Below are positions 320 to 16,753 of a stretch of 35,385 bases of DNA, piece after piece. The notes under the pieces were generated by a model. The model saw only the letters and a program-made list of their open reading frames with translations. It searched no databases and was not told where the DNA came from. The translations under genes were made by a program, and so were the position numbers. The stretch lies in assembly GCA_902783285.1 (NCBI GenBank), contig CACZQM010000065.1:1-35385 (forward strand). The letters are read 5' to 3'. This stretch comes from an uncultured Desulfovibrio sp. (GTDB lineage Bacteria; Desulfobacterota; Desulfovibrionia; Desulfovibrionales; Desulfovibrionaceae). Every line of letters begins with the position of its first letter. Position 1 is the first letter of the stretch.

Positions 320-1207
320 CTACTCGGCAAGATTTCCTTTGGAAGCGCGGAAGGAAGCACCAGCGATGCGCACCCTGTAATCGGTCGCCTCGGCGGGGAA
401 ATCGGCAAAAAGCAGGGTGAAAGGGGCCTCGTCGCCAAAGCGCACGTTGAAATTATTGGAGATGATGCTGACTTTGCTGTTCAAAAGCTCATCCAGCTCC
501 GCTTTTTCCAGGCGTTCCAGCTGCATCTGGCTGATGAAGGCGCCCGCAACCTGCCGCTTCGACATCAAGGGGCGGCCTTCACTGTCGCACAGGTCGGCCT
601 CCAGCTGGATCATGTCGCATGGGTCCACGGCATTGTTCCTGACTTTCCCTTCAATGACGAGGACGCGGCCGAGATTCTTGTTGTCCACGATGTACTGCCG
701 CACCTCGCGCAGCTCCAGCTTTTCCATGGCCGGCTTCTGCACGGCAGGAGCGTCATGCTTCATTTTGTCCTGCTTGATCTGGGGCAGCCATTCAAGCACC
801 TGTTCCGGCATGTTGCCGTAGAGCCAGGGCTTGATCCCATCAAGGTAGCTGGTGTTCACCAGGGCCCAATGCGCTCCCCAGCCGGCAAGGCCTATGAGCA
901 GCAGTATGAACAGCCATGCCAGGCCATGCGACTTTTTTCCTTCCTGGATGACAAGGGGGGCATCCTGCGCCGCGCCCTGCACCGCATTCCGTGAAGCATC
1001 GGGCAGAGACCCGCTCAGGGAAAGTCCCTCGCCAAGGCCGTCAGGCTGTACGCCGCCGGCCGGAGCCTCCTCCCTGGCCTCCTGTGCCGGTGATCCGGAG
1101 AGGGAAAAAACATTTTTGCAGACAGAGCAGCGGAACCTGGCATTTTCCTTGAATTTATCGTCGGGGATCCTGAATTTTGTGCCGCATTCCGGGCAAACGA
1201 TATCCAT
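320..1207 (-). CDS. Zinc-ribbon, DUF3426-type membrane protein
   Basis: A 295-residue protein. An N-terminal MJ0042-type zinc ribbon has two CxxC pairs, C5/C8 and C27/C30. A low-complexity acidic and glycine-rich linker follows to about residue 90, then a single transmembrane helix at about 95-116, then a DUF3426-like domain at about 150-290 that should be periplasmic. This architecture is widespread in Deltaproteobacteria, but its job is not known; a role in sensing or assembling something at the envelope is only a guess. It is the last gene of a leftward operon, starting 15 bases after the hpt stop, and the start at 1207 has an AGGAG about 9 bases upstream. Confidence 0.9.
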   Translation of the reverse strand: MDIVCPECGTKFRIPDDKFKENARFRCSVCKNVFSLSGSPAQEAREEAPAGGVQPDGLGEGLSLSGSLPDASRNAVQGAAQDAPLVIQEGKKSHGLAWLFILLLIGLAGWGAHWALVNTSYLDGIKPWLYGNMPEQVLEWLPQIKQDKMKHDAPAVQKPAMEKLELREVRQYIVDNKNLGRVLVIEGKVRNNAVDPCDMIQLEADLCDSEGRPLMSKRQVAGAFISQMQLERLEKAELDELLNSKVSIISNNFNVRFGDEAPFTLLFADFPAEATDYRVRIAGASFRASKGNLAE

Positions 1208-1222
1208 GGTCAGCTACTCCTG

Positions 1223-1744
1223 CTAAAGGGTAAAATCATAGAGTTCGTAGATGGCGTCGAGGTTGCGGTATTTTTCCGCAAAGTCAAGTCCATAGCCGAC
1301 GATGAAGCCGTCTTCCATCTCGAATCCGGCGAAATCGGGCTCGATGCTTTTTTCCCTGCGGCCATGCTTATTGATGAGTGCTGCGATGCGTATGGAGGTG
1401 GCCCCGCGCGAAGACAGATAGCGCGTGAAGAAATCCATCGATTTCCCGGAATCCACGATATCCTCGACGATGAGGACATGGCGGCCTTCCAGTGAGATCT
1501 CCACATCCTTGGTGATCTCGATATGCGTGCTCTGCGTCTTGTTGCCGTAGCTGGCAAGACGGACGAAATCGATGATGACGTCTGTTTTCATGTTGCGCAG
1601 CAGGTCGCTGAAAAAAGCGAAGGCCCCTTTGAGGACGCATATGACGACCAGCTCTTCGCCGGCATAGAGGGAGTCGATCTGTGCCGCCATCGCGGCAACG
1701 CGTTCCTGTATCTGCTCTTTGCTGAACAGCACTTTCTTTTGCAT
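1223..1744 (-). CDS. hpt: Hypoxanthine phosphoribosyltransferase
   Basis: A 173-residue purine salvage enzyme of the cytoplasm that transfers the ribosyl phosphate of PRPP to hypoxanthine (and usually guanine), making IMP or GMP. The PRPP-binding loop VLIVEDIVDSGKS is at residues 90-102, with the two acidic residues that hold the ribose. The pyrophosphate loop CVLKGA is at 36-41, and the flexible catalytic loop with ASYG is at 65-68. Length is normal for the bacterial Hpt type. It is the middle gene of the operon: its start is 11 bases after the tlpA-like stop, with GGAG 7 bases upstream. Confidence 0.95.
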   Translation of the reverse strand: MQKKVLFSKEQIQERVAAMAAQIDSLYAGEELVVICVLKGAFAFFSDLLRNMKTDVIIDFVRLASYGNKTQSTHIEITKDVEISLEGRHVLIVEDIVDSGKSMDFFTRYLSSRGATSIRIAALINKHGRREKSIEPDFAGFEMEDGFIVGYGLDFAEKYRNLDAIYELYDFTL

Positions 1745-1755
1745 GGGAGGCTCCG

Positions 1756-2286
1756 TTAGCGCCTTATAAGGGCCATGAGGAATTTTTTGAGTTCAGAGAC
1801 AGGCACATAGCCTGCTTCGCTGGCTTCGATGCGCCCCTGGCGGTTGTAAACGACATTGAAGGGGATGGCATCTATCCGGTAGGCTCGCGAGACCTCGTCG
1901 CCGCCGTAGAAGACAGGATACGCATCCTGGATCCCCAGGGATTTGATGAACCGGGCTGCTTCCCTTATGTTTTCATCGATCGCCACGCCCACGATGAGCA
2001 GGTCCTTTTCGGGGATCTCCTTGCGCAGTTTCATGAGCTCAGGGATCTCCTTGCGGCAGGGACCGCAGAACTCAGCAAAAAAATTGACGAGGATGACCTT
2101 GCCATGGCTTGCGGCAAGGAAGGAGAGGAGTTCATTGACCGTCACATGTTTCAGGGAAAAAGCGGTCTGCGCCTGCCCCTGGGGCCGTTCCGCAGCGGGG
2201 GCGGCGAAAGCCGGGGCCACGGCCAGCATGACGGCAGGCAAAAGCCATAGGACGAGCCTGCGCAGCAGAGGATGCCTGTTACCCAT
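1756..2286 (-). CDS. TlpA/ResA-like thioredoxin-fold protein, exported
   Basis: A 176-residue protein with a signal peptide (positive n-region RHPLLRR, hydrophobic stretch, cleavage after AFA near residue 28). The thioredoxin-fold domain carries the redox motif CGPC at residues 74-77 inside the sequence NFFAEFCGPCRKE, and a proline loop near AIPFNVV. Proteins of this kind reduce disulfides in the periplasm, for instance in cytochrome c maturation. No cytochrome gene lies beside it, so the substrate is unknown. It is the first gene of the leftward operon. The start at 2286 has a strong AAGGAG. The pairing with hpt looks like co-transcription without shared function. Confidence 0.9.
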   Translation of the reverse strand: MGNRHPLLRRLVLWLLPAVMLAVAPAFAAPAAERPQGQAQTAFSLKHVTVNELLSFLAASHGKVILVNFFAEFCGPCRKEIPELMKLRKEIPEKDLLIVGVAIDENIREAARFIKSLGIQDAYPVFYGGDEVSRAYRIDAIPFNVVYNRQGRIEASEAGYVPVSELKKFLMALIRR

Positions 2287-2312
2287 GTCCTTCTCCTTGG
2301 TATGTCGTCGCA

Positions 2313-2341
2313 GTTATATCTCGTTTTTAAGGGACCTGAAA
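2313..2341 (-). promoter_or_regulatory. Candidate promoter of the tlpA-like/hpt operon
   Basis: Read leftward, TATAAC at 2318-2313 is a good -10 box; 17 bases upstream is TTTCAG (2341-2336), a weak -35 box. The start codon is about 27 bases past the -10 box, with room for the ribosome site. Confidence 0.5.
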
Positions 2342-2345
2342 AGCA

Positions 2346-2374
2346 TTGAACAATCCGCTCATAAAGTATAGTAT
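2346..2374 (+). promoter_or_regulatory. Candidate promoter of rpoH
   Basis: TTGAAC at 2346-2351, a 17-base spacer, then TAGTAT at 2369-2374 (TATAGT at 2367-2372 is an alternative with 15 bases). It would give a leader of roughly 180 bases before the chosen rpoH start. Its -35 box is only four bases from that of the divergent promoter. Confidence 0.55.
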
Positions 2375-2563
2375 GCCCCCCGTTATGGAAAGGGCACGTC
2401 ATTGCGGCAGGCTTGTTATGGCACATATCGCGACCAATATCAAAACCCTATTGCGCCCCCGCGGCAAAAAAACTGCGGATCTGCCTTTTTTTGCCCATGC
2501 AGCAGGCTCTGGATGCGCTCCGTGCCCCCTTTGCCTGGCGCAGGATGCCCGGAGGATGTCCGC

Positions 2564-3682
2564 GTGAAAGAGACTTCCGGGGCCCTTGCCCCCTCCGCTG
2601 AGGAAGGTGGTGTGATGATGCCTCTGCCCGGAGGCGCCCGGTCTGATGCCGGCGCAGCACCGGACGACAGCCCGTCCGCTGTCCTCCAGGGCGATGCCCA
2701 GGACATCGAGATCCTTCCTCCTGAAGACGCAATGGATCTCGATGACGGCGACATACTGGAAGATGACGCCATCGACGAGTCGAGCAACCTTCCTGCCCTT
2801 GCTTCGGAAAGGCTGCCCAGCATCCCTTCCCGGGACGGTCTTCATGCCTACCTGCAGAAGATCAACAAATTCCCCATGCTCGCCCCCGAGGAAGAAACGC
2901 AGCTCGCCCGGCTCGTGCGCGACCACAATGACCCCCAGGCGGCATTCCGGCTCGTATCCTCCCATCTGCGGCTGGTCGTGCGCATCGCCCTCGATTTCCA
3001 GCGCCGCTGGATGCAGAACGTGCTCGACCTCATCCAGGAAGGCAACGTAGGCCTGCTCCGTGCAGTGAACAAGTTCGACCCTGACAAGGGCATCAAGTTC
3101 TCCTACTACGCGTCGTTCTGGATCAGGGCGTACATCCTCAAGTTCATCATGGACAACTGGCGCATGGTGAAGATAGGCACGACCCAGGCGCAGCGCAAGC
3201 TGTTCTACAACCTGAACAAAGAGAAGCAGAAGCTCCTCCAGCAGGGGTTCGATCCCGATTCAGCCATGCTTTCAGAGCGGCTCGGCGTTTCCGAAGACCA
3301 GGTGATCGAGATGGAGCAGCGCCTCGATTCCAGCGACGTTTCGCTTGATGTCCCCGTGAGCGACGAAAGCGGCAGCGCATCCCGGATGGACTTCCTGCCT
3401 TCGCAGGATGTTGCCGCCGAAACGCATATCGCCGGCGCCGAGATGTCGGACATCCTGCATGCCAGCCTTGAGAAGCTCATCCCCAGCCTTTCCGAAAAAG
3501 AACTTTTCATCCTGCGCCGGCGGCTGCTTTCCGACGAGCCCATGACCCTGCGCGAGATCGGAGAGCATTACCACGTGACGCGCGAACGCGTGCGCCAGCT
3601 GGAAGTGCGGCTGCTCGAAAAGCTCAAGGCGCATCTCAAGACGGACATAAAAGATATTTCAGAAGACTGGATCGATCCATAA
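2564..3682 (+). CDS. rpoH: RNA polymerase sigma factor, RpoH (sigma-32) family
   Basis: Directs RNA polymerase to heat-shock type promoters. From the GTG at 2564 it has 372 residues. An acidic N-terminal tail of about 85 residues is longer than in E. coli RpoH. Region 2 follows, with DLIQEGNVGLLRAV and the FSYYASFWIRAYI aromatic stretch, then the RpoH-box-like AQRKLFYNL that marks this family. Region 4 ends with the helix-turn-helix MTLREIGEHYHVTRERVRQLE. The GTG start has GGAGG at 2551-2555 with 8-base spacing. An ATG at 2615 with AGGAAGG upstream is a real alternative, giving 355 residues. The next gene starts 16 bases downstream. Confidence 0.93.
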   Translation: MKETSGALAPSAEEGGVMMPLPGGARSDAGAAPDDSPSAVLQGDAQDIEILPPEDAMDLDDGDILEDDAIDESSNLPALASERLPSIPSRDGLHAYLQKINKFPMLAPEEETQLARLVRDHNDPQAAFRLVSSHLRLVVRIALDFQRRWMQNVLDLIQEGNVGLLRAVNKFDPDKGIKFSYYASFWIRAYILKFIMDNWRMVKIGTTQAQRKLFYNLNKEKQKLLQQGFDPDSAMLSERLGVSEDQVIEMEQRLDSSDVSLDVPVSDESGSASRMDFLPSQDVAAETHIAGAEMSDILHASLEKLIPSLSEKELFILRRRLLSDEPMTLREIGEHYHVTRERVRQLEVRLLEKLKAHLKTDIKDISEDWIDP

Positions 3683-3698
3683 ACCTCGTGAGCGAGCA

Positions 3699-5501
3699 AT
3701 GCGTTACCTATCCACCGGAAGGCGCGACCGTGCATCTGCAAGGCTGACATGCCGCCTTCCCATGTTCACCGCAGCCCTGTGCGTATTCTTCCTCTCCGCA
3801 GGCTGCACCTCTGCCGGAACGGGGATGGCTTCGGAAGAGCCCTTTGCCCCTGCCCTGCGCGCTTCGGGGGATGCCAGCGTCCCGCTCGCTTCCCCGGGTG
3901 CAGAACTTATCTATGCCCAGATCGTCCTCAGCCAATCCATGGTCCGCAACGATCATCGGGGCGTGCTCGAAATGGCCCGCATCATTGCCGGCAGCAGGGA
4001 ATTTTCCTCCGCCCAGGCCACGGCCGTCATCGACGCCTCGGCATGGCTCGTCGCCAACGGCCACGCCGCTGAAGCTGAAGAACTGCTTGAAGTCGCATCC
4101 CAGCGCCTCCACGATGATTTCAACCTGCTTGCCATGCGCGCCGACCTCCGCATGCAGTCCGGAAAGAACCAGGAGGCTCTGGCCCTTTTGCGTGAGTTCA
4201 CCAGCCGCCATCCAGAAAACATGAAGGCCAAATCGGCGTTGGCGACCGTCATGATCCGCTGCGGCCAGGTCAAGGAAGCGCTGAAGATCCAGGACAGCAT
4301 ACCCGAAAGCGACTTTACGCCGGAGATGCGCTTTGCCTACGCCCAGGCCCTGCATATCGAGGGCGACATGGCAAACGCCGAAAAGCAGCTGCGCATCGCG
4401 CTGCAGGCCAAGCCCGACTATGCCGAAGCCATGACGCTGCTTGCCCTTACGCTGGAACGCTCCAAGCGTTATGCCGAAGCAGAGGATCTTTATGAAAAGA
4501 TCCTGGAGCTGGACGAAGACAACAGCAGCAGCCGCCTCCTGCTCCTGCGGCTCTACCTGTTGGAAGGAAAGATCGACAGCGCCGTGCAGGCCGTGCTTTC
4601 GTCGGGAGAGCCCGTCAAATTCGCGGCGTCCGCCGCATCCATCGCCATGGAGGAAAAAAATTTTTCCGCCCCGGTACGCTTTCTCGAACAGCTTGAGAAG
4701 CGCAGGGAATTCGCCCCGGAGCTCTATTTTTACCACGCCTCGCTCTTGTATGAGCACAGGAACGACGCTGAAAGCGCCCTGAAGCTCCTCGACAAGATCC
4801 GCTACGGGGATGAGAGCTTTGTGTCCGCGACGAAGCTGAAGATCCAGATCCTCCTCGACAAGCATTCCGCCGGTGAAGCCTACGCCCTGCTCGACAGGCT
4901 CATCGAAGCCCACCCCGGCGATATCGCGCCCCTGATACTTGCAGGGGATACCTATGCCCGCCAGAAAGATCACGCGGCTGCAGAACGCTTCTATGCCAGG
5001 GCGCTCGAGATCGAACCGGATCAGAACTATGCCATGTATCAGCTGGCCTATCAGAAAGAGCTCCAAGGGCTCCATGACGAGGCCTGCGCCATGATGGAAA
5101 ACATCATCAGGCAGCATCCCGACAACGCTCTCGCGCTCAATTACATCGCCTACTACCTTGCCGAACACGGAACGGAACTCGACAAAGCCCTCGACTACGC
5201 CGCCCGTGCCGCAGACCTCGAGCCCCAGGCCGACTTCATCCTCGATTCCCTGGCATGGGTGCATTATCAGCGGAAGGAATATGAGCAGGCATGGAAAGTC
5301 ATGCAGCGGGCGCATATGCTGCACTTCCTTTCCAGCGAACATGATCCCGTCCTGCTCGAACACTATGGCGACATCGCCGCCGCCGCAGGGGAATGGGCTC
5401 CTGCACGCAAGGGCTGGCAGGAAGCGCTCGAACTCTTCCGCCGGCAGGGGCAGGCTGACGATGAAGCCCGCGTACGCGGCAAACTGGAGAAGATGGAATG
5501 A
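3699..5501 (+). CDS. TPR-repeat lipoprotein
   Basis: A 600-residue secreted protein. The arginine-rich n-region, hydrophobic segment at about residues 22-34 and cysteine at residue 36 (SAGC) fit a lipoprotein signal under the permissive pattern. The rest is a chain of tetratricopeptide repeats, seen as recurring pairs such as NAEKQLRIALQAKPDYAEA, YAEAEDLYEKILELDEDN and AAERFYARALEIEPDQNYA. It probably forms a protein-protein interaction superhelix at the inner face of the outer membrane; partners are unknown. The start at 3699 is preferred over ATG 3762 because the latter would leave the signal peptide without positive charge. It overlaps the following gene by an ATGA. Confidence 0.9.
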   Translation: MRYLSTGRRDRASARLTCRLPMFTAALCVFFLSAGCTSAGTGMASEEPFAPALRASGDASVPLASPGAELIYAQIVLSQSMVRNDHRGVLEMARIIAGSREFSSAQATAVIDASAWLVANGHAAEAEELLEVASQRLHDDFNLLAMRADLRMQSGKNQEALALLREFTSRHPENMKAKSALATVMIRCGQVKEALKIQDSIPESDFTPEMRFAYAQALHIEGDMANAEKQLRIALQAKPDYAEAMTLLALTLERSKRYAEAEDLYEKILELDEDNSSSRLLLLRLYLLEGKIDSAVQAVLSSGEPVKFAASAASIAMEEKNFSAPVRFLEQLEKRREFAPELYFYHASLLYEHRNDAESALKLLDKIRYGDESFVSATKLKIQILLDKHSAGEAYALLDRLIEAHPGDIAPLILAGDTYARQKDHAAAERFYARALEIEPDQNYAMYQLAYQKELQGLHDEACAMMENIIRQHPDNALALNYIAYYLAEHGTELDKALDYAARAADLEPQADFILDSLAWVHYQRKEYEQAWKVMQRAHMLHFLSSEHDPVLLEHYGDIAAAAGEWAPARKGWQEALELFRRQGQADDEARVRGKLEKME

Positions 5502-6283
5502 AACTGCTTTCGCTTGCCTTCCCTGTCCTGCTTGCCGCCCTGATCTCGTCAGGATGCGTCAGGACGCAGCCTCCTGTTGATATGCACCGCGAGAGCGCAT
5601 GGTCGGCCTTCCAGGCGGAAGCTGCAGGCTCCCCCGTGACCCTGTCACCAGCAAAGGACGTCCTTTCCGGCAGCATACGCTTCGGCCTCCCGCAGGACAC
5701 GCGCCGCGTGACCTACATGCTCTGGCCCATCCACGCGCAGGAAAACAGCCGGGGCCTTCCCGGACTTAGGCTCGAAGTGAACGCAGGGGCAGGCCCCTCC
5801 GTGTGCAGCGCGCTCTGGCAGAGCGGCCGCATCACGCTCCTGCTGCATCAGGAAAAGCAGGCATGGACGTGCAGGGATTCCCGTGAAAACCTGGGAAAGC
5901 TCCTCGGCATCTCTCTTCCGCTCGAACTCCCCCGCATATACGCATTCCTCTGCGGACGTTCCTATTCCGCCCTCGGGAAGCCATCCCCGGTCTCCGGCAC
6001 CGGAGGTGCTTCCTTTGCTTTTGGCAGGGATGCGCTTGTCAGCCGGATCACGCTGCGTCCCGATGGCTCTCCCGTACAGCTCCAGACATGGGATGGCTGG
6101 GATGTGGATGTGGATTACGGCGATGACCGGCTTCCCGCCCGGCTGGACGGGAAGCTCAAGACCCCTGACGGCGACCTGCGCTTCCTCCTCCTCGTGAAAG
6201 GCCGTGCGCCCCTGAACGCAGCGCAGCCGCCTGCGGGGCTTTCCATACCGGCCGGTTACAGCATCCGTGAACTGGATGACTGA
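5498..6283 (+). CDS. LolB-like putative lipoprotein
   Basis: A 261-residue protein with a lipoprotein signal (MKLLSLAF, hydrophobic core, SSGC with the cysteine at residue 20). The middle and end show a pattern like LolB, the outer-membrane receptor that inserts lipoproteins: a stretch LGKLLGISLPLELP followed by a glycine-rich beta region with VDYGDDRLPARLDGK. Similarity is judged by eye and is weak, so LolB function is a proposal. Its start codon overlaps the stop of the TPR lipoprotein (ATGA), so the two are translationally coupled and probably work in the same envelope process. Confidence 0.8.
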   Translation: MKLLSLAFPVLLAALISSGCVRTQPPVDMHRESAWSAFQAEAAGSPVTLSPAKDVLSGSIRFGLPQDTRRVTYMLWPIHAQENSRGLPGLRLEVNAGAGPSVCSALWQSGRITLLLHQEKQAWTCRDSRENLGKLLGISLPLELPRIYAFLCGRSYSALGKPSPVSGTGGASFAFGRDALVSRITLRPDGSPVQLQTWDGWDVDVDYGDDRLPARLDGKLKTPDGDLRFLLLVKGRAPLNAAQPPAGLSIPAGYSIRELDD

Positions 6284-6319
6284 CCTTTTTTCAACCTGCA
6301 AAGCATGTACGGAGATGCA

Positions 6320-6748
6320 ATGAAACGTATTTACATCGCTTCGGATCACGGCGGATTCAACCTCAAGTCATTCTTGGCAGGCTACCTCAGGGAAAAAGGT
6401 CATGACGTATTCGACCTTGGGCCATCCGATCCGGCGAGCTGCGACTACCCTGTCAAGGCCAAGGCTGTCACCGATGCCGTCCTGGGATGCGAAGAATCCG
6501 TCGGCATCCTCATTTGCGGCACAGGCCTGGGCATGAGCATGGCGGCGAACAGGGTCCGCGGCATACGCGCGGCGCTCTGCACGACGGAATTCCATGCAAA
6601 ATTTGCCAGGGCGCACAACAATGCCAATGTCCTGTGCATGGGAGAACGCGTGACAGGCCCGGGCCTGGCTGCGAGCATGGCGGACATCTTCCTGGAAACG
6701 CCCTTCGAAGGCGGCAGGCATCTGCGCAGGATCACCATTTTCAACTGA
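6320..6748 (+). CDS. rpiB: Ribose-5-phosphate isomerase B
   Basis: A 142-residue cytoplasmic enzyme of the non-oxidative pentose phosphate pathway, interconverting ribose 5-phosphate and ribulose 5-phosphate. It has the family signature: ASDHGGFNLK at residues 7-16, the catalytic cysteine C66 in ICGTGLGMSMAANR, the anion-hole GTG at 67-69 and histidine H99 in RAHNNANVLCMGER. The start at 6320 is chosen over the upstream in-frame ATG at 6305 because GGAG lies 5 bases before it and family members begin with this MKRIYIASDHGG pattern. It ends 15 bases before a perfect palindrome separating it from radA. Confidence 0.95.
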   Translation: MKRIYIASDHGGFNLKSFLAGYLREKGHDVFDLGPSDPASCDYPVKAKAVTDAVLGCEESVGILICGTGLGMSMAANRVRGIRAALCTTEFHAKFARAHNNANVLCMGERVTGPGLAASMADIFLETPFEGGRHLRRITIFN

Positions 6749-6763
6749 CCCACAGCATGATGC

Positions 6764-6791
6764 GCGGCCCATGGCTGCAGCCATGGGCCGC
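6764..6791 (+). terminator. Perfect 28-base palindrome, weak terminator or mRNA end hairpin
   Basis: Bases 6764-6777 and 6778-6791 are exact inverted copies, with CTGCAG at the centre. A hairpin with a short loop would form in RNA. Only CTTTCCCC follows, so termination is likely partial. It also sits only 14 bases before the radA start, where no Shine-Dalgarno sequence is visible. Confidence 0.45.
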
Positions 6792-6805
6792 AGCTTTCCC
6801 CTGCC

Positions 6806-8149
6806 ATGACCAAGGTGCGCGAATTCTACATCTGCCGGAACTGCCATGCGCAAAGCATGCAGTGGCATGGGCAGTGCCCCCGGTGCCGCGAGTGGAACAC
6901 CCTTGTTCCTGCCCAGGGCGTGCCGCGCGCAGCCGGGCGTCCGCCTTCGCCGCAGGGCACGCCCGGGATCATCCCCCTCGCCGACGCCCCTTCCCAGGCG
7001 CCTCATGGGTTCAGCACCGGCTGCCAGCCCCTGGACGGCCTGCTGGGGGGCGGCTTCATGCCCGGAGCCTCCTTGCTCATCTCTGGAGAGCCTGGCATCG
7101 GGAAGTCTACCCTTCTCCTGCAGCTTGCCGGTTCTGCTGCCCGCGAAGGCAAGACCGCGATCTACGCCAGCGGTGAGGAAACGCTTTCCCAGGTGCGATC
7201 GAGGGCGGAAAGGCTCGGCGTGCTGCATCCGCGGCTCCTGGCCGTATCCACCACGCGCATGGAAGACATCCTGCCCAGGCTGGAAGCCGGCGGCTCCCCT
7301 CCCGACCTGCTCATCATCGACTCCGTGCAGACCATGTCTGCCGAATCGGCAGAAGGACTGCCCGGGAATGTCACGCAGGTACGCGCCGTATCCGGTGAAC
7401 TCGTCAGCCGCTGCAAGCAGTGCGGCACTGCGCTCGTTCTCGTAGGCCATGTGACAAAAGACGGTGTGCTCGCAGGCCCAAGGCTGCTGGAACATCTTGT
7501 CGATACCGTGATCTCCCTGGAAGGCGACAGGAAAGAGAGCTACAGGCTGCTCCGCGTCCTGAAAAACCGCTTCGGTCCGAATCAGGAGCTCCTGCTGTTC
7601 CGCATGGAGCGCAGAGGGATGGAACTCATCGAAGATCCTTCCACGCTCTTCCTGGGGACCCACGACCCTTCCCTCAGCGGCACTGCGCTGGTGATGACCA
7701 TGGACGGGCAGCGGCCCTTCGCCGTCGAGATACAGGCCCTGGCCGCCAAAAGCTGGCTGGCCGCGCCCAGGCGCGCCGCCCTGGGCTTTGATGTCAACCG
7801 CCTCTACATGCTTCTTGCCGTCATCGAAAAGCGCCTGCGCATCAATTTTGCGCAGGCGGACATCTACGCCAAGATCGGCGGAGGCATCAGGATGCAGGAG
7901 CCGGGGCTGGACCTTCCCCTCGTTGCCGCCATCCTTTCATCCTACTATGACAAGCCGCTCCCTGAACGCTGCATCCTCTGGGGAGAGATCGACCTCAACG
8001 GGCAGATACGGGCCGTCCACGGGCACGACATCCGCATGAACCAGGCAAAGAAGCTGGGCTACGCGCCCATCATCTGCCAGAACAAGGATCATACAGGCCC
8101 GATCGGCAGCCTCGCCGACCTGCATTCGTTCCTGTTCAGGCGCACGTGA
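6806..8149 (+). CDS. radA: DNA repair protein RadA
   Basis: A 447-residue ATPase that helps process recombination intermediates by driving branch migration. Domains in order: a four-cysteine zinc finger (C10, C13, C24, C27), a RecA-like core with Walker A GEPGIGKST at 94-102, the RadA hallmark KNRFG at 253-257, and a C-terminal Lon-protease-like domain containing GGGIRMQEPGLDLPLVAAIL, which lacks the Lon catalytic pair and acts structurally. The start at 6806 matches the family N-terminus, though no ribosome site is visible upstream, and the strong palindrome lies immediately before it. The gene is convergent with prmA, with only 18 bases between the stops. Confidence 0.95.
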   Translation: MTKVREFYICRNCHAQSMQWHGQCPRCREWNTLVPAQGVPRAAGRPPSPQGTPGIIPLADAPSQAPHGFSTGCQPLDGLLGGGFMPGASLLISGEPGIGKSTLLLQLAGSAAREGKTAIYASGEETLSQVRSRAERLGVLHPRLLAVSTTRMEDILPRLEAGGSPPDLLIIDSVQTMSAESAEGLPGNVTQVRAVSGELVSRCKQCGTALVLVGHVTKDGVLAGPRLLEHLVDTVISLEGDRKESYRLLRVLKNRFGPNQELLLFRMERRGMELIEDPSTLFLGTHDPSLSGTALVMTMDGQRPFAVEIQALAAKSWLAAPRRAALGFDVNRLYMLLAVIEKRLRINFAQADIYAKIGGGIRMQEPGLDLPLVAAILSSYYDKPLPERCILWGEIDLNGQIRAVHGHDIRMNQAKKLGYAPIICQNKDHTGPIGSLADLHSFLFRRT

Positions 8150-8167
8150 CCCTTGTTCCGCAAGGCA

Positions 8168-9052
8168 TCATCCCCAGTAAAGGCAGATCCACTCATCCTG
8201 TTCCGCGCTCCCTTCTTTCGTGGGATCTGTGGCGGCAGACGGGCATGAGATCTTTCCGGGCACGCCCAGGGGGGCATAGGCTTTCAATAATGCCGGCAGC
8301 TGGCACTGCAGGAACCCCGAGAGCACCAGGCATCCGCCCGGACGCATGAGGTCCATGAGCGGCCCGGCCATCTCCACGAGGGGGCCGGCAAGGATATTGG
8401 CGATGACAAGGTCGAATCGCCGGCCGGCAAGGACTTCGGTGCTGCCTTCGGTGAACGCCACCCCTTCCGTCCCGTTGAGGACGGCATTTTCCCGTGCGTT
8501 GCTGATGGACAAGGGATCGATATCCACCCCCACGCCATGCAGCTCCATTTTGGCGCAGGCTATGCTCAGGATGCCGGACCCCGTCCCGACATCGGCGAAA
8601 TCCATGCCCGCGCGTATCGACCCGGAACGCATCAGCCGTGTCATGGCATCCAGGCACATGGTCGTCGTGGGATGGTGTCCCGTGCCAAAAGCGGAGCGTG
8701 GTTCGATGATGATGCGGCACGCGGCGTCTCCTCCGGCAGGCTCATCGGCAAGCCATGGGGGGACGATGCGGAAGCATCCCGCATCCACAGGAGTGAAAAA
8801 GGCGCGCCATTTTTCCTGCCAGTCGACATCAGGCAGTTCCGTGAACTCCACCCGGGAGCCGGGGACGAAACGCTCCAGTCCATCGCGCAGGGCCTGCAGT
8901 CCTTCCATGGTCTCCGACGTGACCTTGAGCAGGTGGTCGCCGTTGGGCAGGGATTCTTCTTCCCAACCCTGGGGAGAGTTGACCGAAACCAAAGCTTCCG
9001 CTAAAGGAAAGCAGTCTTCATCCACGATGATGTTCAAACGGTGAAGCACCAT
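8168..9052 (-). CDS. prmA: Ribosomal protein L11 methyltransferase
   Basis: A 294-residue cytoplasmic enzyme that uses S-adenosylmethionine to trimethylate ribosomal protein L11. It has an N-terminal substrate-binding domain (about 1-95), then the PrmA signature EPRSAFGTGHHPTT at 117-130, the SAM-binding motif DVGTGSG at 154-160, VGVDIDPLSI where the ribose is held, and VIANILAGPL, the family's catalytic-loop sequence. The start at 9052 is chosen because GGAGGT lies 7 bases upstream and the protein aligns from there; the open frame extends further upstream without support. It is transcribed away from pth, which begins 76 bases off. Confidence 0.92.
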   Translation of the reverse strand: MVLHRLNIIVDEDCFPLAEALVSVNSPQGWEEESLPNGDHLLKVTSETMEGLQALRDGLERFVPGSRVEFTELPDVDWQEKWRAFFTPVDAGCFRIVPPWLADEPAGGDAACRIIIEPRSAFGTGHHPTTTMCLDAMTRLMRSGSIRAGMDFADVGTGSGILSIACAKMELHGVGVDIDPLSISNARENAVLNGTEGVAFTEGSTEVLAGRRFDLVIANILAGPLVEMAGPLMDLMRPGGCLVLSGFLQCQLPALLKAYAPLGVPGKISCPSAATDPTKEGSAEQDEWICLYWG

Positions 9053-13094: not shown

Positions 13095-13469
13095 ATGACG
13101 CTCCAGGAATTATACGGCCGCATAGGCGGCAGTTATGAAGCAGCCAGGCGGATCCTGCCCATGGATACGCTCATCAGCAAATTCATCATACGGCTGCTTT
13201 CAGACGGATCCTGTGGCAGGCTCATGGAAGCCTATGCCCATGACGATGCCCGCGGGATCTTCGAAGCCGCCCACAGCATGAAAGGCGTCTATGCCAACCT
13301 CGGGCTGCTCGAGCTCTCCTCCATGTCAAGCGCCATCGCCGAAGAATTCCGCCCCGGAAAAGAGAGGAAAATGACCGATGGCGAGCTTTCCGCCCATATC
13401 GCTGCGCTGGATGAAAAATACCGTGCGGCGATGGCTGCCATCAGGCAATTTGAAGCTGAGCAGGACTGA
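13095..13469 (+). CDS. Histidine phosphotransfer (Hpt) domain protein
   Basis: A 124-residue single-domain protein. The four-helix Hpt fold is recognised by EAAHSMKGVYANLG with the phosphate-accepting histidine H60, matching the family pattern AHxLKGxxxxLG. It carries no kinase or receiver domain, so it should pass phosphate between a hybrid sensor kinase and a response regulator encoded elsewhere. The start at 13095 follows GGAGAGG by a few bases. It precedes the LapG-like protease by 40 bases on the same strand, so it may belong to the same transcript; whether it belongs to the same pathway is unknown. Confidence 0.88.
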   Translation: MTLQELYGRIGGSYEAARRILPMDTLISKFIIRLLSDGSCGRLMEAYAHDDARGIFEAAHSMKGVYANLGLLELSSMSSAIAEEFRPGKERKMTDGELSAHIAALDEKYRAAMAAIRQFEAEQD

Positions 13470-13509: not shown

Positions 13510-14160
13510 ATGAAACGCATCGCATCCTGCCTCCTGCTTTCTGCCTGCGTACTTGCCGTGGGCCTGGGCCTTTCCTTCCCGGCGTCAGCAGGAGATGCGT
13601 CGTTCGCCAGGATCTTCGGCACCGTTTCCTTCCAGCGCCCCATGAAAGTGTTCGGCCAGTGGATCGACGTCCAGAAGCGCAACAGGGCACGCAGCATTTA
13701 TGCCGGATCCCCCCTCAAGCTCCGGTCGAACGAGACCACGGCGACACTGCTCAGCAAGGCCGGGCAGATGTCGGGGATGCAGCGGCTCCGCTTCATCAAC
13801 ACCTTCTGGAACCGCTATCCCTATGTCACCGACATAAAAAACTGGGGCAAGCAAGATTACTGGGCCATCCCGTCGGAATTCGTCGCCCGGTGCGGCGACT
13901 GCGAAGACTATGCCATCGTGAAATATTACACCCTGCTCGAACTCGGCCAGCCCGTGGGCACCATGCGCATCGTGGTGCTCAAAGACACACTGAGAAAACT
14001 CGCCCATGCCGTCCTTGCCGTTGAAGAAGGCGGCAGCATTTACATACTCGACAACGTTTCCAACGCCATCGTAAGCCACGACAGGCTTTCCCATTATGTC
14101 CCTGCCTATTCCCTGAACCGGGATAATGCCTTCGTGCATATCAAAGGGAAAAAGCTCTGA
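13510..14160 (+). CDS. LapG-like periplasmic cysteine protease (bacterial transglutaminase-like)
   Basis: A 216-residue exported protein with a signal peptide (cleavage after ASA, about residue 27). It belongs to the bacterial transglutaminase-like cysteine protease family, whose best-studied member LapG cleaves the N-terminus of giant RTX-type adhesins and so releases biofilm cells. The triad can be seen: cysteine C131 in CGDCEDYAIVKY, histidine H166 in KLAHAVLAVE and aspartate D181 in IYILDNV. The acidic residues right after the cysteine match those that bind calcium in LapG. Start choice: MKR plus a hydrophobic core; a weak AGGG lies upstream. The next gene begins 17 bases downstream and likely regulates it. 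The adhesin substrate and its type I exporter are not in this window. Confidence 0.88.
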   Translation: MKRIASCLLLSACVLAVGLGLSFPASAGDASFARIFGTVSFQRPMKVFGQWIDVQKRNRARSIYAGSPLKLRSNETTATLLSKAGQMSGMQRLRFINTFWNRYPYVTDIKNWGKQDYWAIPSEFVARCGDCEDYAIVKYYTLLELGQPVGTMRIVVLKDTLRKLAHAVLAVEEGGSIYILDNVSNAIVSHDRLSHYVPAYSLNRDNAFVHIKGKKL

Positions 14161-14177
14161 AGGGCAAGGAGATGACC

Positions 14178-16103
14178 ATGCATAGCGACACTGCTTTGGG
14201 AAAATCGCATAAGAAACGCCTCCTCTGGCTTTTTGCCTGCACAACGCTCCTCGTTGCCGCAGCCATCGCGTTCACCCTCTCGGTGCTTTCAGAAAAGCGA
14301 TCGTCCATCCTCAAGGAAACGGCAGACACCTGCAGGGAAGAACTTGTCCTGCTCAATGCCCGCCTCGCTGAATGGCGGTCTTCGACCCAGGCAGTCATTT
14401 CCTCCATCGCCCAGGAAAACCTCTTCCGGGTATTCCTTTCCGACTACGCTTCCACAGAAAGCGGCATCGCGCGCTTCGAAGCCTTGAAAAAAGAGACGGA
14501 TTCCCAGGAAAGCGAATTCTACCATTACCTCGGTGACGTGCTCAGCGATGTGGCGCGCATGCATGGGATACGCAACGCCGCGCTGCTCCTTCCCGATGGT
14601 CGCCCGCTCCTCGGCGAGCCTCTTGACGTGGACAAAGCGTTCCTCAAGGGGTCGGGCAGCTTCCGCATCATTTCCTGCTCTGAGGAGAACGGCAGCGCGT
14701 ACGCAAGGACGGTGACAGCCGTTTTTCCCGTGGATGACGACGAACGGGCCGGCGCCTACCTCCTCCTTGACATCCCCCTCGACAACGGATTTGCCAAGGT
14801 CTTGTCCAGCGAGACGCACAACTCCATGCAGTATGCCTTGCTCACTTCCTCGGGCAGGCTCACCCTTTCCGGCGGCAACGTGCGGTTCCAGCCTGGCGGC
14901 TCCGCTGCCTTTCCCGTGGACAGCTTCATCGAGGAGAACGGCACTGATCTCTGCATGTACGCGGCTGTCAGCGATCCCGCAGAGGGTTTCCTCCGCGCAT
15001 CCATCGCCAAGGACATCATCGAAGGGCGCGAAGCAAAAGCAAAATGGAACGTCCTGATCTACGCCATCACGGCCATAGCCGCCCTGCTGATGCTGGCGCT
15101 CGCCCTGTATTTCGCCGAGATGGCTGCCAATGAATCCAGGCTGAACCGGAGGATCTCGCACCACAGCTTCCTGCTGGAAAGCATCAACAGCTCTGTGGAA
15201 AACGGCATCGTCCTCGTTGAGCCCGGCGGGACGGTCCTGTATAAGAACAAGCAGTTCCCCGGGGCTGACTGGGAACGCGTCCCCCTGTCTGCCATCATCC
15301 CCGGTGACGCAGCCACCGGCATCCTCGACAAGACCAGGGAAGTCATCGCCGACCGCAAGCCCGCCACCATCGAAACAACGATGCAGCAAAACGATGAAAA
15401 GCGCCTCTACCGCGTCGCCCTGTTCCCCTATGTCCCGGAAAGGAAAAAGGGGGCGGACGCCCTTGCCGTCATCCAGTTCACCGACATCACGGTGTTCAGG
15501 CAGCGCGCCATGGAGCAGAAGCGCCGCGTGGAAAGCCTGCTTGACGTCTTTGCCTGCGCCATGGAAAGCGTGGATAAGGGCTTCCGCGGCCAGACGCAGA
15601 AAATGCTTGCCGTCATCGACCTCCTCCGCACGCCGCTCGCGCTCTCGCCCGATGAGATCCAGACGCTGAGCATCGCAGCGCGCCTGCAAAGCATCAGCAA
15701 GCTTTTCATACCCCGTGAACTCGTGACCAAGCAGGGAAAGCTCACCGATGAAGAAAAAGCGCGCATAGCCCAGGCCAATGCCATGGCGAGCCATATGATC
15801 CAAAACTTTGATTTCCGCCTCCCCGTTTCCGAAACGCTCGGCCAGAGCAACGAGCGCATGGACGGCACAGGCAGGCCCGCCGGACTGAAGGGCGATGCCA
15901 TACTGAAAACGGCGCGTGTGCTTGCCGTCGTGACATCCTTCTGTGCCATGACCAGCCCGCGCTCCTACCGGGCGGCCTTTTCCGCCGCCGAAGCCCTGCA
16001 GAAGCTCTCTTCGGACACCGGCTACGACCGCACCATCGTCGACAGCCTTGCCGGATGCGGTCCAGAGGCGCTGGAACAGCTCAGCAGCACAGCCGATGCC
16101 TGA
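14178..16103 (+). CDS. Membrane sensor with PAS and degenerate HD-GYP domain (DvhD-like)
   Basis: A 641-residue inner-membrane protein. Transmembrane helix 1 is at about 13-37, a large periplasmic sensor domain at about 38-288, helix 2 at about 291-314, a PAS-like domain at about 330-440, and a C-terminal HD-GYP-like domain at about 450-625. The HD-GYP fold is clear from GKLTDEEKARI, GTGRPAGLKGD, ARVLAVV and SPRSYRAAFS. The metal-binding residues are gone: HD is replaced in AARLQSISK, HHE reads SNE, and GYP reads GRP. It is therefore unlikely to hydrolyse cyclic-di-GMP but could bind it. Paired with a LapG-like protease it probably replaces LapD. The start at 14178 is preferred over 14172 because AAGGAG needs the extra spacing. 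Confidence 0.88.
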   Translation: MHSDTALGKSHKKRLLWLFACTTLLVAAAIAFTLSVLSEKRSSILKETADTCREELVLLNARLAEWRSSTQAVISSIAQENLFRVFLSDYASTESGIARFEALKKETDSQESEFYHYLGDVLSDVARMHGIRNAALLLPDGRPLLGEPLDVDKAFLKGSGSFRIISCSEENGSAYARTVTAVFPVDDDERAGAYLLLDIPLDNGFAKVLSSETHNSMQYALLTSSGRLTLSGGNVRFQPGGSAAFPVDSFIEENGTDLCMYAAVSDPAEGFLRASIAKDIIEGREAKAKWNVLIYAITAIAALLMLALALYFAEMAANESRLNRRISHHSFLLESINSSVENGIVLVEPGGTVLYKNKQFPGADWERVPLSAIIPGDAATGILDKTREVIADRKPATIETTMQQNDEKRLYRVALFPYVPERKKGADALAVIQFTDITVFRQRAMEQKRRVESLLDVFACAMESVDKGFRGQTQKMLAVIDLLRTPLALSPDEIQTLSIAARLQSISKLFIPRELVTKQGKLTDEEKARIAQANAMASHMIQNFDFRLPVSETLGQSNERMDGTGRPAGLKGDAILKTARVLAVVTSFCAMTSPRSYRAAFSAAEALQKLSSDTGYDRTIVDSLAGCGPEALEQLSSTADA

Positions 16104-16123
16104 CCTGCCTTGCCGGAGCCCTC

Positions 16124-16753
16124 ATGAAAGCCGCCTTCCTTGCCGCCATCCTCCTGCTCTTCGGGCATGCCGGAGCAACCGCAGCGGCATCCGAAACGCC
16201 CCTGCCCTCGTTGCCTGCTGATGCAGGACACACGCAGCGTGTCATTTCCTATGATGACGCTTCGGGGAAGAACATCGTCGTCCTCACGGAAAGCGATGTC
16301 AGCACGCGGACTGCGCCGGGAAGCCCGGATGTCCGCCTTGCATCGAAACGCCTGCATGCCTATGGATACCTCTCCACTCCCCATGGCTTTGACAGGCAGT
16401 GGAGCGTCACAGACCATGTGAAGGACTGCCCGGAGTACACCAGCATCGGCGTCCGCCATCAGGCGGACCGCCTGACGGTGACCGACCTGGACGGCGATGG
16501 CATGGCCGAGGTATGGATGTCCTACGAGCTGTGGTGCAAGGGAGATGTCTCACCCAACACGCTCAAGGTGATCATGGTGGAAAATGGACGCAAGCACGCC
16601 ATCCGGGGAGAAACCCTTGTCGAGCTGCCCGGTACAGCCCCGGTGGGCGGCTTGGGCGTCATGGATGGACACTTCCGCAAAGCCCATCCTGCCATGCGCT
16701 CCTTTGCCCGGGAATACTGGAAAGGGGCCAGCGGCGGAGGCATGGCGCGATAG
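16124..16753 (+). CDS. Exported protein with DLDGDG motif, unknown
   Basis: A 209-residue protein with a clear signal peptide (MKAAFLAAILLLFGHAGATA, cleavage near residue 22). The mature part has the sequence VTDLDGDGMAEVWMSY at about 118-134, where DLDGDG resembles a calcium-binding loop of the EF-hand or FG-GAP type. Two cysteines (C102, C138) could form a disulfide, and KVIMVENGRKHAIRG follows. I recall a poorly described family of secreted proteins with the same DLDGDG-then-RG order, but the match is by memory only. It starts 20 bases after the HD-GYP-like gene, so it is probably co-transcribed with the Lap-like pair. Confidence 0.82.
   Translation: MKAAFLAAILLLFGHAGATAAASETPLPSLPADAGHTQRVISYDDASGKNIVVLTESDVSTRTAPGSPDVRLASKRLHAYGYLSTPHGFDRQWSVTDHVKDCPEYTSIGVRHQADRLTVTDLDGDGMAEVWMSYELWCKGDVSPNTLKVIMVENGRKHAIRGETLVELPGTAPVGGLGVMDGHFRKAHPAMRSFAREYWKGASGGGMAR

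Follow-up and report, generated by a model that had tools for sequence, protein, structure and literature searches.

A probable, divergent DvhD-type receptor with a degenerate HD-GYP domain encoded next to a LapG-type protease in an uncultured Desulfovibrio

The stretch of DNA analyzed in this work (35,385 nucleotides of contig CACZQM010000065.1 from an uncultured Desulfovibrio sp.; hereafter the window) carries on its forward strand a set of three genes in the order Hpt-LapG-DvhD. The first one (13095..13469, + strand) encodes an Hpt phosphotransfer protein of 124 amino acids (Pfam Hpt, E 3.7e-6). The second (13510..14160, + strand), whose start codon was picked by eye to fit a signal peptide, encodes a periplasmic cysteine protease of the LapG/DvhG type: it is recognized by Peptidase_C93 of Pfam (E 2.1e-17), matches the LapG-type structures 4u65 (E 3.2e-19) and 4fgo in the PDB and keeps the Cys, His and Asp of the catalytic triad; the NCBIfam LapG model scored 84.6 bits, under its cut-off of 320. 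The third gene (14172..16103, + strand) encodes a DvhD-type receptor of 643 amino acids. Its end is overlapped by 49 bases by an open reading frame (16055-16753) that matches the NCBIfam model for an M949_RS01915 family surface polysaccharide biosynthesis protein (140 bits), and no counterpart of this frame was found at the corresponding L002 or L003 locus of the relatives described below.

The receptor comprises a first transmembrane segment (TM1), a periplasmic dCache-like domain (residues 43-289; 14298..15038, + strand), a second transmembrane segment (TM2), a PAS domain (residues 342-443; 15195..15500, + strand) and a degenerate HD-GYP domain (residues 463-622; 15558..16037, + strand). An earlier note on this DNA had described 15525-16060 as HD-GYP; the domain does lie inside these limits, but the gene is much longer. 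The HD-GYP assignment comes from HD_5 (PF13487; 107.2 bits, E 9.8e-31) and from a 161-residue alignment to 9rbz_A with 34% identity, whereas the PAS_4 match is weak, with E 7e-4 just below the curated cut-off. When the PDB sequences were searched with the receptor, 9rc0 (E 6.5e-32) and 9rbz, both from DvhD, ranked far above intact HD-GYP enzymes. A template-free model, for which the sequences of three relatives were used beside that of the window protein (mean pLDDT 67), begins with a long helix at the N-terminus, followed by a periplasmic alpha/beta domain, TM2, PAS and the helices of an HD domain, and a Foldseek/VIA fold search with this model matched the DvhD entries 9rc0, 9rbz and 9rc2. 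Among these the PAS/HD-GYP structure 9rc0 came first (Z 16.3, covering residues 324-641), the HD-GYP structure 9rbz reached Z 14.4, the periplasmic part (residues 48-286) matched 9rc2 with Z 14.6 over 227 residues (rmsd 4.0, 12% identity) and the PAS region found numerous PAS structures with Z 10-15. Confidence is low in the modelled HD-GYP part (pLDDT 30-60 in places), so the model backs the domain order more than the detail.

DvhD of Desulfovibrio vulgaris has a dead HD-GYP domain that was crystallized with c-di-GMP in 2026 (PDB 9rbz, 9rc0 and 9rc2; PMC13090378). It has two sites for c-di-GMP, a canonical and a bridging one, binds the nucleotide with a Kd of about 99 nM and does not hydrolyze it, 3',3'-cGAMP being bound about five times more weakly, and the dvh system has been reported in other Desulfovibrionales (PMC13090378). 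The same paper, together with earlier work that it cites, shows that DvhD controls the LapG homologue DvhG in cells, much as LapD does with LapG (PMC13090378). The window protein shares with DvhD of D. vulgaris Hildenborough (DVU1020, BfsD) the order TM, periplasmic dCache, TM, PAS and HD-GYP, as judged from Pfam and structure matches, together with the lost metal ligands, the core of the nucleotide pocket, a LapG-type protease gene directly upstream and the same branch of the HD-GYP tree. It is an orthologue of DvhD and a divergent member of the family; the sequence comparison was made with the PDB construct of DvhD.

Fifty-five HD-GYP domains, 23 intact and 32 dead, were aligned in DvhD numbering. 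All 23 intact domains have H, H, D, H, H, H and D at positions 527, 559, 560, 588, 612, 613 and 641, where the window domain has Q, Q, S, A, S, N and T; since every one of the seven invariant His/Asp positions is replaced, the ligand loss is complete. The loss reported in the earlier note is thus borne out, its readings QS, SNE and GRP being confirmed at receptor residues 506-507, 559-561 and 567-569, and it extends to more positions than were listed there. On the + strand, the changed residues are Q474 (15591..15593), corresponding to H527 of DvhD, which is His in the intact domains and in nearly all other DvhDs; Q506-S507 (15687..15692) in place of the intact HD; A535 (15774..15776) in place of a His invariant among the intact domains; S559-N560-E561 (15846..15854) in place of HHE; G567-R568-P569 (15870..15878) in place of GYP, with R568 at Y621 of DvhD; and T588 (15933..15935) in place of Asp, this position being N in all other DvhDs. 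The Glu of HHE is the only residue of the HD and HHE motifs kept in the window, and it is invariant in 32/32 dead domains. The Tyr of GYP should not be counted among the metal ligands as it had been before; Y621 of DvhD contacts a phosphodiester of c-di-GMP (PMC13090378).

Compared with DvhD of D. vulgaris the window thus has QS for SQ, SNE for MNE, GRP for GYP, Q for H527, T for N641 and the replacement Y523G. The intact phosphodiesterases PmGH (4mcw) and PA4781 (4r8z) share the fold and part of the substrate pocket with the window domain, but in these enzymes the HD, HHE and GYP-type motifs are present and metals are bound. With QS and SNE in place of the HD/HHE metal ligands of the active enzymes, the window domain presumably cannot hydrolyze c-di-GMP.

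The residues that contact c-di-GMP in DvhD, eight at the canonical site and additional ones at the bridging site, were taken from PMC13090378 and located in the window by alignment to 9rc0/9rbz. At five of the eight canonical contacts the window has the same residue as DvhD (L577, K582, M646, R650 and Y652 of DvhD); of these, M646, R650 and Y652 fall, together with the likewise retained R653, in the segment M593-R600 (MTSPRSYR; 15948..15971, + strand). A sixth, E668, is conservatively changed to D; position 668 is a specificity residue and varies in the family. The other two, Y523 and Y621, are replaced by G and R in all six domains of the subclade to which the window belongs. L577 and R650 show no variation among the 32 dead domains, and M646 and R653 are shared by the whole subclade. 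The window retains P567 of the bridging site but has V at K520 and E at R569, two positions that vary in many other DvhDs too. Because two c-di-GMP contacts are replaced in the subclade, binding by the window's receptor is likely but not certain.

The maximum likelihood tree of the 55 domains places 32/32 dead domains on one side of a single branch with support 100/99, and the result was the same when the tree was rerun without 15 motif columns. The window's subclade comprises the window, a Mailhella sp. (L002) and two Desulfovibrionaceae MAGs (L003 and L004) with tandem domains; it is held together with support 100/100 and sits on a long branch (1.05). It differs from other DvhDs by QS or QG for SQ, GRP for GYP and Y523G, and the same seven metal positions are lost in every one of its homologues. 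Most other DvhDs keep H527, and all 26 outside the subclade have S559, Q560, M612 and N641 (DvhD numbering), so most of the new residues are fixed and not drifting. The dN/dS ratio of the HD domain (NG86) is about 0.07 for the window versus L002, where dS is saturated, and about 0.10-0.13 for L003 versus L004; the HD domain also diverges less than the periplasmic part (dN 0.14 vs 0.45). The domain is therefore under purifying selection, and with the metal positions lost across the whole subclade the changes are attributable neither to chance nor to a sequencing slip. A close relative with an intact HD/GYP orthologue, which would point to recent decay, was looked for in 59 genomes, and none was found. 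Relatives do have intact HD-GYP domains, one of them being L118 in the genome of the sister Mailhella, but among the 55 domains the intact sets fall only in a separate group of the tree. The ligand loss is old and common to the DvhD group; recent decay is rejected by the low dN/dS and by the tree.

At the window's locus and at all other DvhD loci examined (L002-L004, L007-L030) LapG lies 5' of DvhD and in the same orientation, and by our own count over the 59 genomes it is present in 26/26 genomes with DvhD versus 5/33 without it. One of these five genes is broken by a stop codon (L064; G013:C34:48378-48695); as DvhD is missing from this genome, the two genes seem to have been lost together. 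Next to intact HD-GYP loci LapG was not found within the fetched flanks of about 1.5 kb, with the exception of L119, a T1SS-dvh locus that includes a complete dvh set, with the intact HD-GYP about 3 kb further downstream.

The genome to which the window belongs (93% complete, 1.9 Mb, 206 contigs) contains a single HD-GYP domain, the dead one described here. EAL, intact HD-GYP and PilZ were not found in it by profile searches, the phosphodiesterase count being based on the EAL and HD_5 profiles. One GGDEF protein (L035) is encoded, with an intact RIGGDEF motif and a possible RxxD inhibition site (REED), and over its whole length it shares 46% identity with the GGDEF protein at the dvh locus of L003. 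It carries GHDIGD, whose Asp occupies the position of the Ser of Hypr cGAMP synthases, so c-di-GMP is its likely product. The circuit recovered from this 93% complete genome thus consists of one synthase, one known receptor and no known phosphodiesterase. A T1SS ABC exporter of the LssB/LapB type is encoded together with HlyD on another contig (C64), not beside the dvhGD pair as in D. vulgaris, where the T1SS genes are adjacent. No match to the LapA retention module or to the VCA0849 C-terminus of adhesins was found in the genome, but these models also miss near relatives that have the system, and absence of the adhesin is therefore not claimed.

The receptor is orthologous to DvhD, has lost the metal ligands, shows the DvhD domain order and has a protease partner, and a LapB-type T1SS exporter is encoded at another place in the genome. 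On these grounds we consider it highly probable that the window encodes an inside-out receptor of the DvhD type, in which a dead HD-GYP domain senses c-di-GMP and controls the neighboring LapG and thereby adhesin release. The domain would derive from a c-di-GMP phosphodiesterase that lost its metal centre and kept the core of the nucleotide pocket. By analogy with D. vulgaris, from which binding, switching and protease control are extrapolated, c-di-GMP bound in the cytoplasm would most likely rearrange the dimer through the stalk, the PAS domain and the transmembrane helices; the dCache-like domain would then restrain the LapG-type protease, so that a large T1SS adhesin would stay on the cell surface, and a fall in c-di-GMP would free the protease to cut the adhesin loose. 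The proposal of the earlier note, a LapD-like receptor evolved from a phosphodiesterase, is supported by the adjoining LapG-type gene and by the orthology to DvhD (PMC13090378). The analogy is right, but both the analogy and this kind of convergence have already been published for the family (PMC13090378). LapD of Pseudomonas fluorescens follows the same logic, a dead c-di-GMP enzyme domain controlling LapG across the inner membrane, with unrelated domains (LapD/MoxY periplasmic, HAMP, GGDEF and EAL); none of these was detected by Pfam in the window's receptor, and the genome is likewise without EAL.

Three other explanations have been weighed against the DvhD-type receptor. The HD-GYP domain of the subclade might no longer bind c-di-GMP and might control LapG as a fixed scaffold or through signals of the dCache-like and PAS domains only. 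The loss of two contacts by Y523G and Y621R in all six domains of the subclade is in keeping with this, as are the changes at every metal position, some of them unlike those in other DvhDs, and a c-di-GMP signaling much reduced by the single GGDEF and the lack of EAL, intact HD-GYP or PilZ. We nevertheless regard it as unlikely, given the invariance of R650 and L577 in the dead domains, the retention of M646 and R653 across the subclade, the stronger conservation of the HD domain than of the periplasmic part and an apparently functional diguanylate cyclase kept in the genome. Binding of another nucleotide, such as 3',3'-cGAMP or pGpG, is less probable still: DvhD itself binds 3',3'-cGAMP, about fivefold more weakly than c-di-GMP (PMC13090378), and the specificity residue E668 is D in the window and variable in the family, but the sole GGDEF protein carries the Asp that points to c-di-GMP as its product. 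Finally, that the gene is a phosphodiesterase decaying in a reduced genome is very improbable. The small, fragmented assembly and the long branch of the subclade speak for it, but the 643-codon frame and the adjacent LapG are intact, dN/dS is low, the loss is common to the whole DvhD group and its new residues are fixed.

As a DvhD-type receptor on a distant branch, the window protein supports the notion that a phosphodiesterase fold was converted to a c-di-GMP receptor serving a LapG protease, apparently in a single early event among these sulfate reducers and related bacteria, and its subclade illustrates how much the former active site can be altered later. The extent of this change, a tandem form in two relatives and a very small c-di-GMP circuit are what is new here; the main text of PMC13090378 makes no mention of Mailhella, of a duplicated HD-GYP domain or of Hpt. 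GRP, Y523G and the tandem domains are natural variants for probing which DvhD contacts matter. As gut relatives carry the system, it probably governs the surface attachment of commensals.

The tandem form is found in L003 (5986-8520) and L004 (4997-7528), DvhD relatives of about 844 amino acids with two HD-GYP domains that both lack the metal ligands. In the tree the two domains of the tandem form group as sisters, which places the duplication after the split from the window's branch. The order Hpt-LapG-DvhD is common to the window, L002, L003 and L004, and Hpt was detected at this place only in this subclade; D. vulgaris differs in having no such gene upstream. At the L003 locus (1644-8520) genes for GGDEF, REC-GGDEF-EAL, Hpt, LapG and DvhD with two dead HD-GYP domains follow one another in one orientation, and at the L004 locus (399-7528) GGDEF and REC-GGDEF-EAL genes likewise precede Hpt, LapG and DvhD in one orientation. 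Such a gene set possibly forms a dedicated c-di-GMP cassette with a phosphorelay, and the Hpt gene of the window may be what is left of an L003-like set. It is a tentative and rather doubtful extension that the subclade represents a remodelled DvhD branch with altered contacts, wired to a phosphorelay, and that the circuit of the window's organism is reduced to one cyclase and one receptor, with no known phosphodiesterase. Adhesion would then be released by lack of synthesis and by dilution, not by hydrolysis.

Two genomes that have DvhD also encode second dead HD-GYP paralogues with SQ and MHE motifs (L082, G019:C51; L086, G017:C34). No LapG lies near them within the fetched flanks, and it is possible that these paralogues have a different receptor output.
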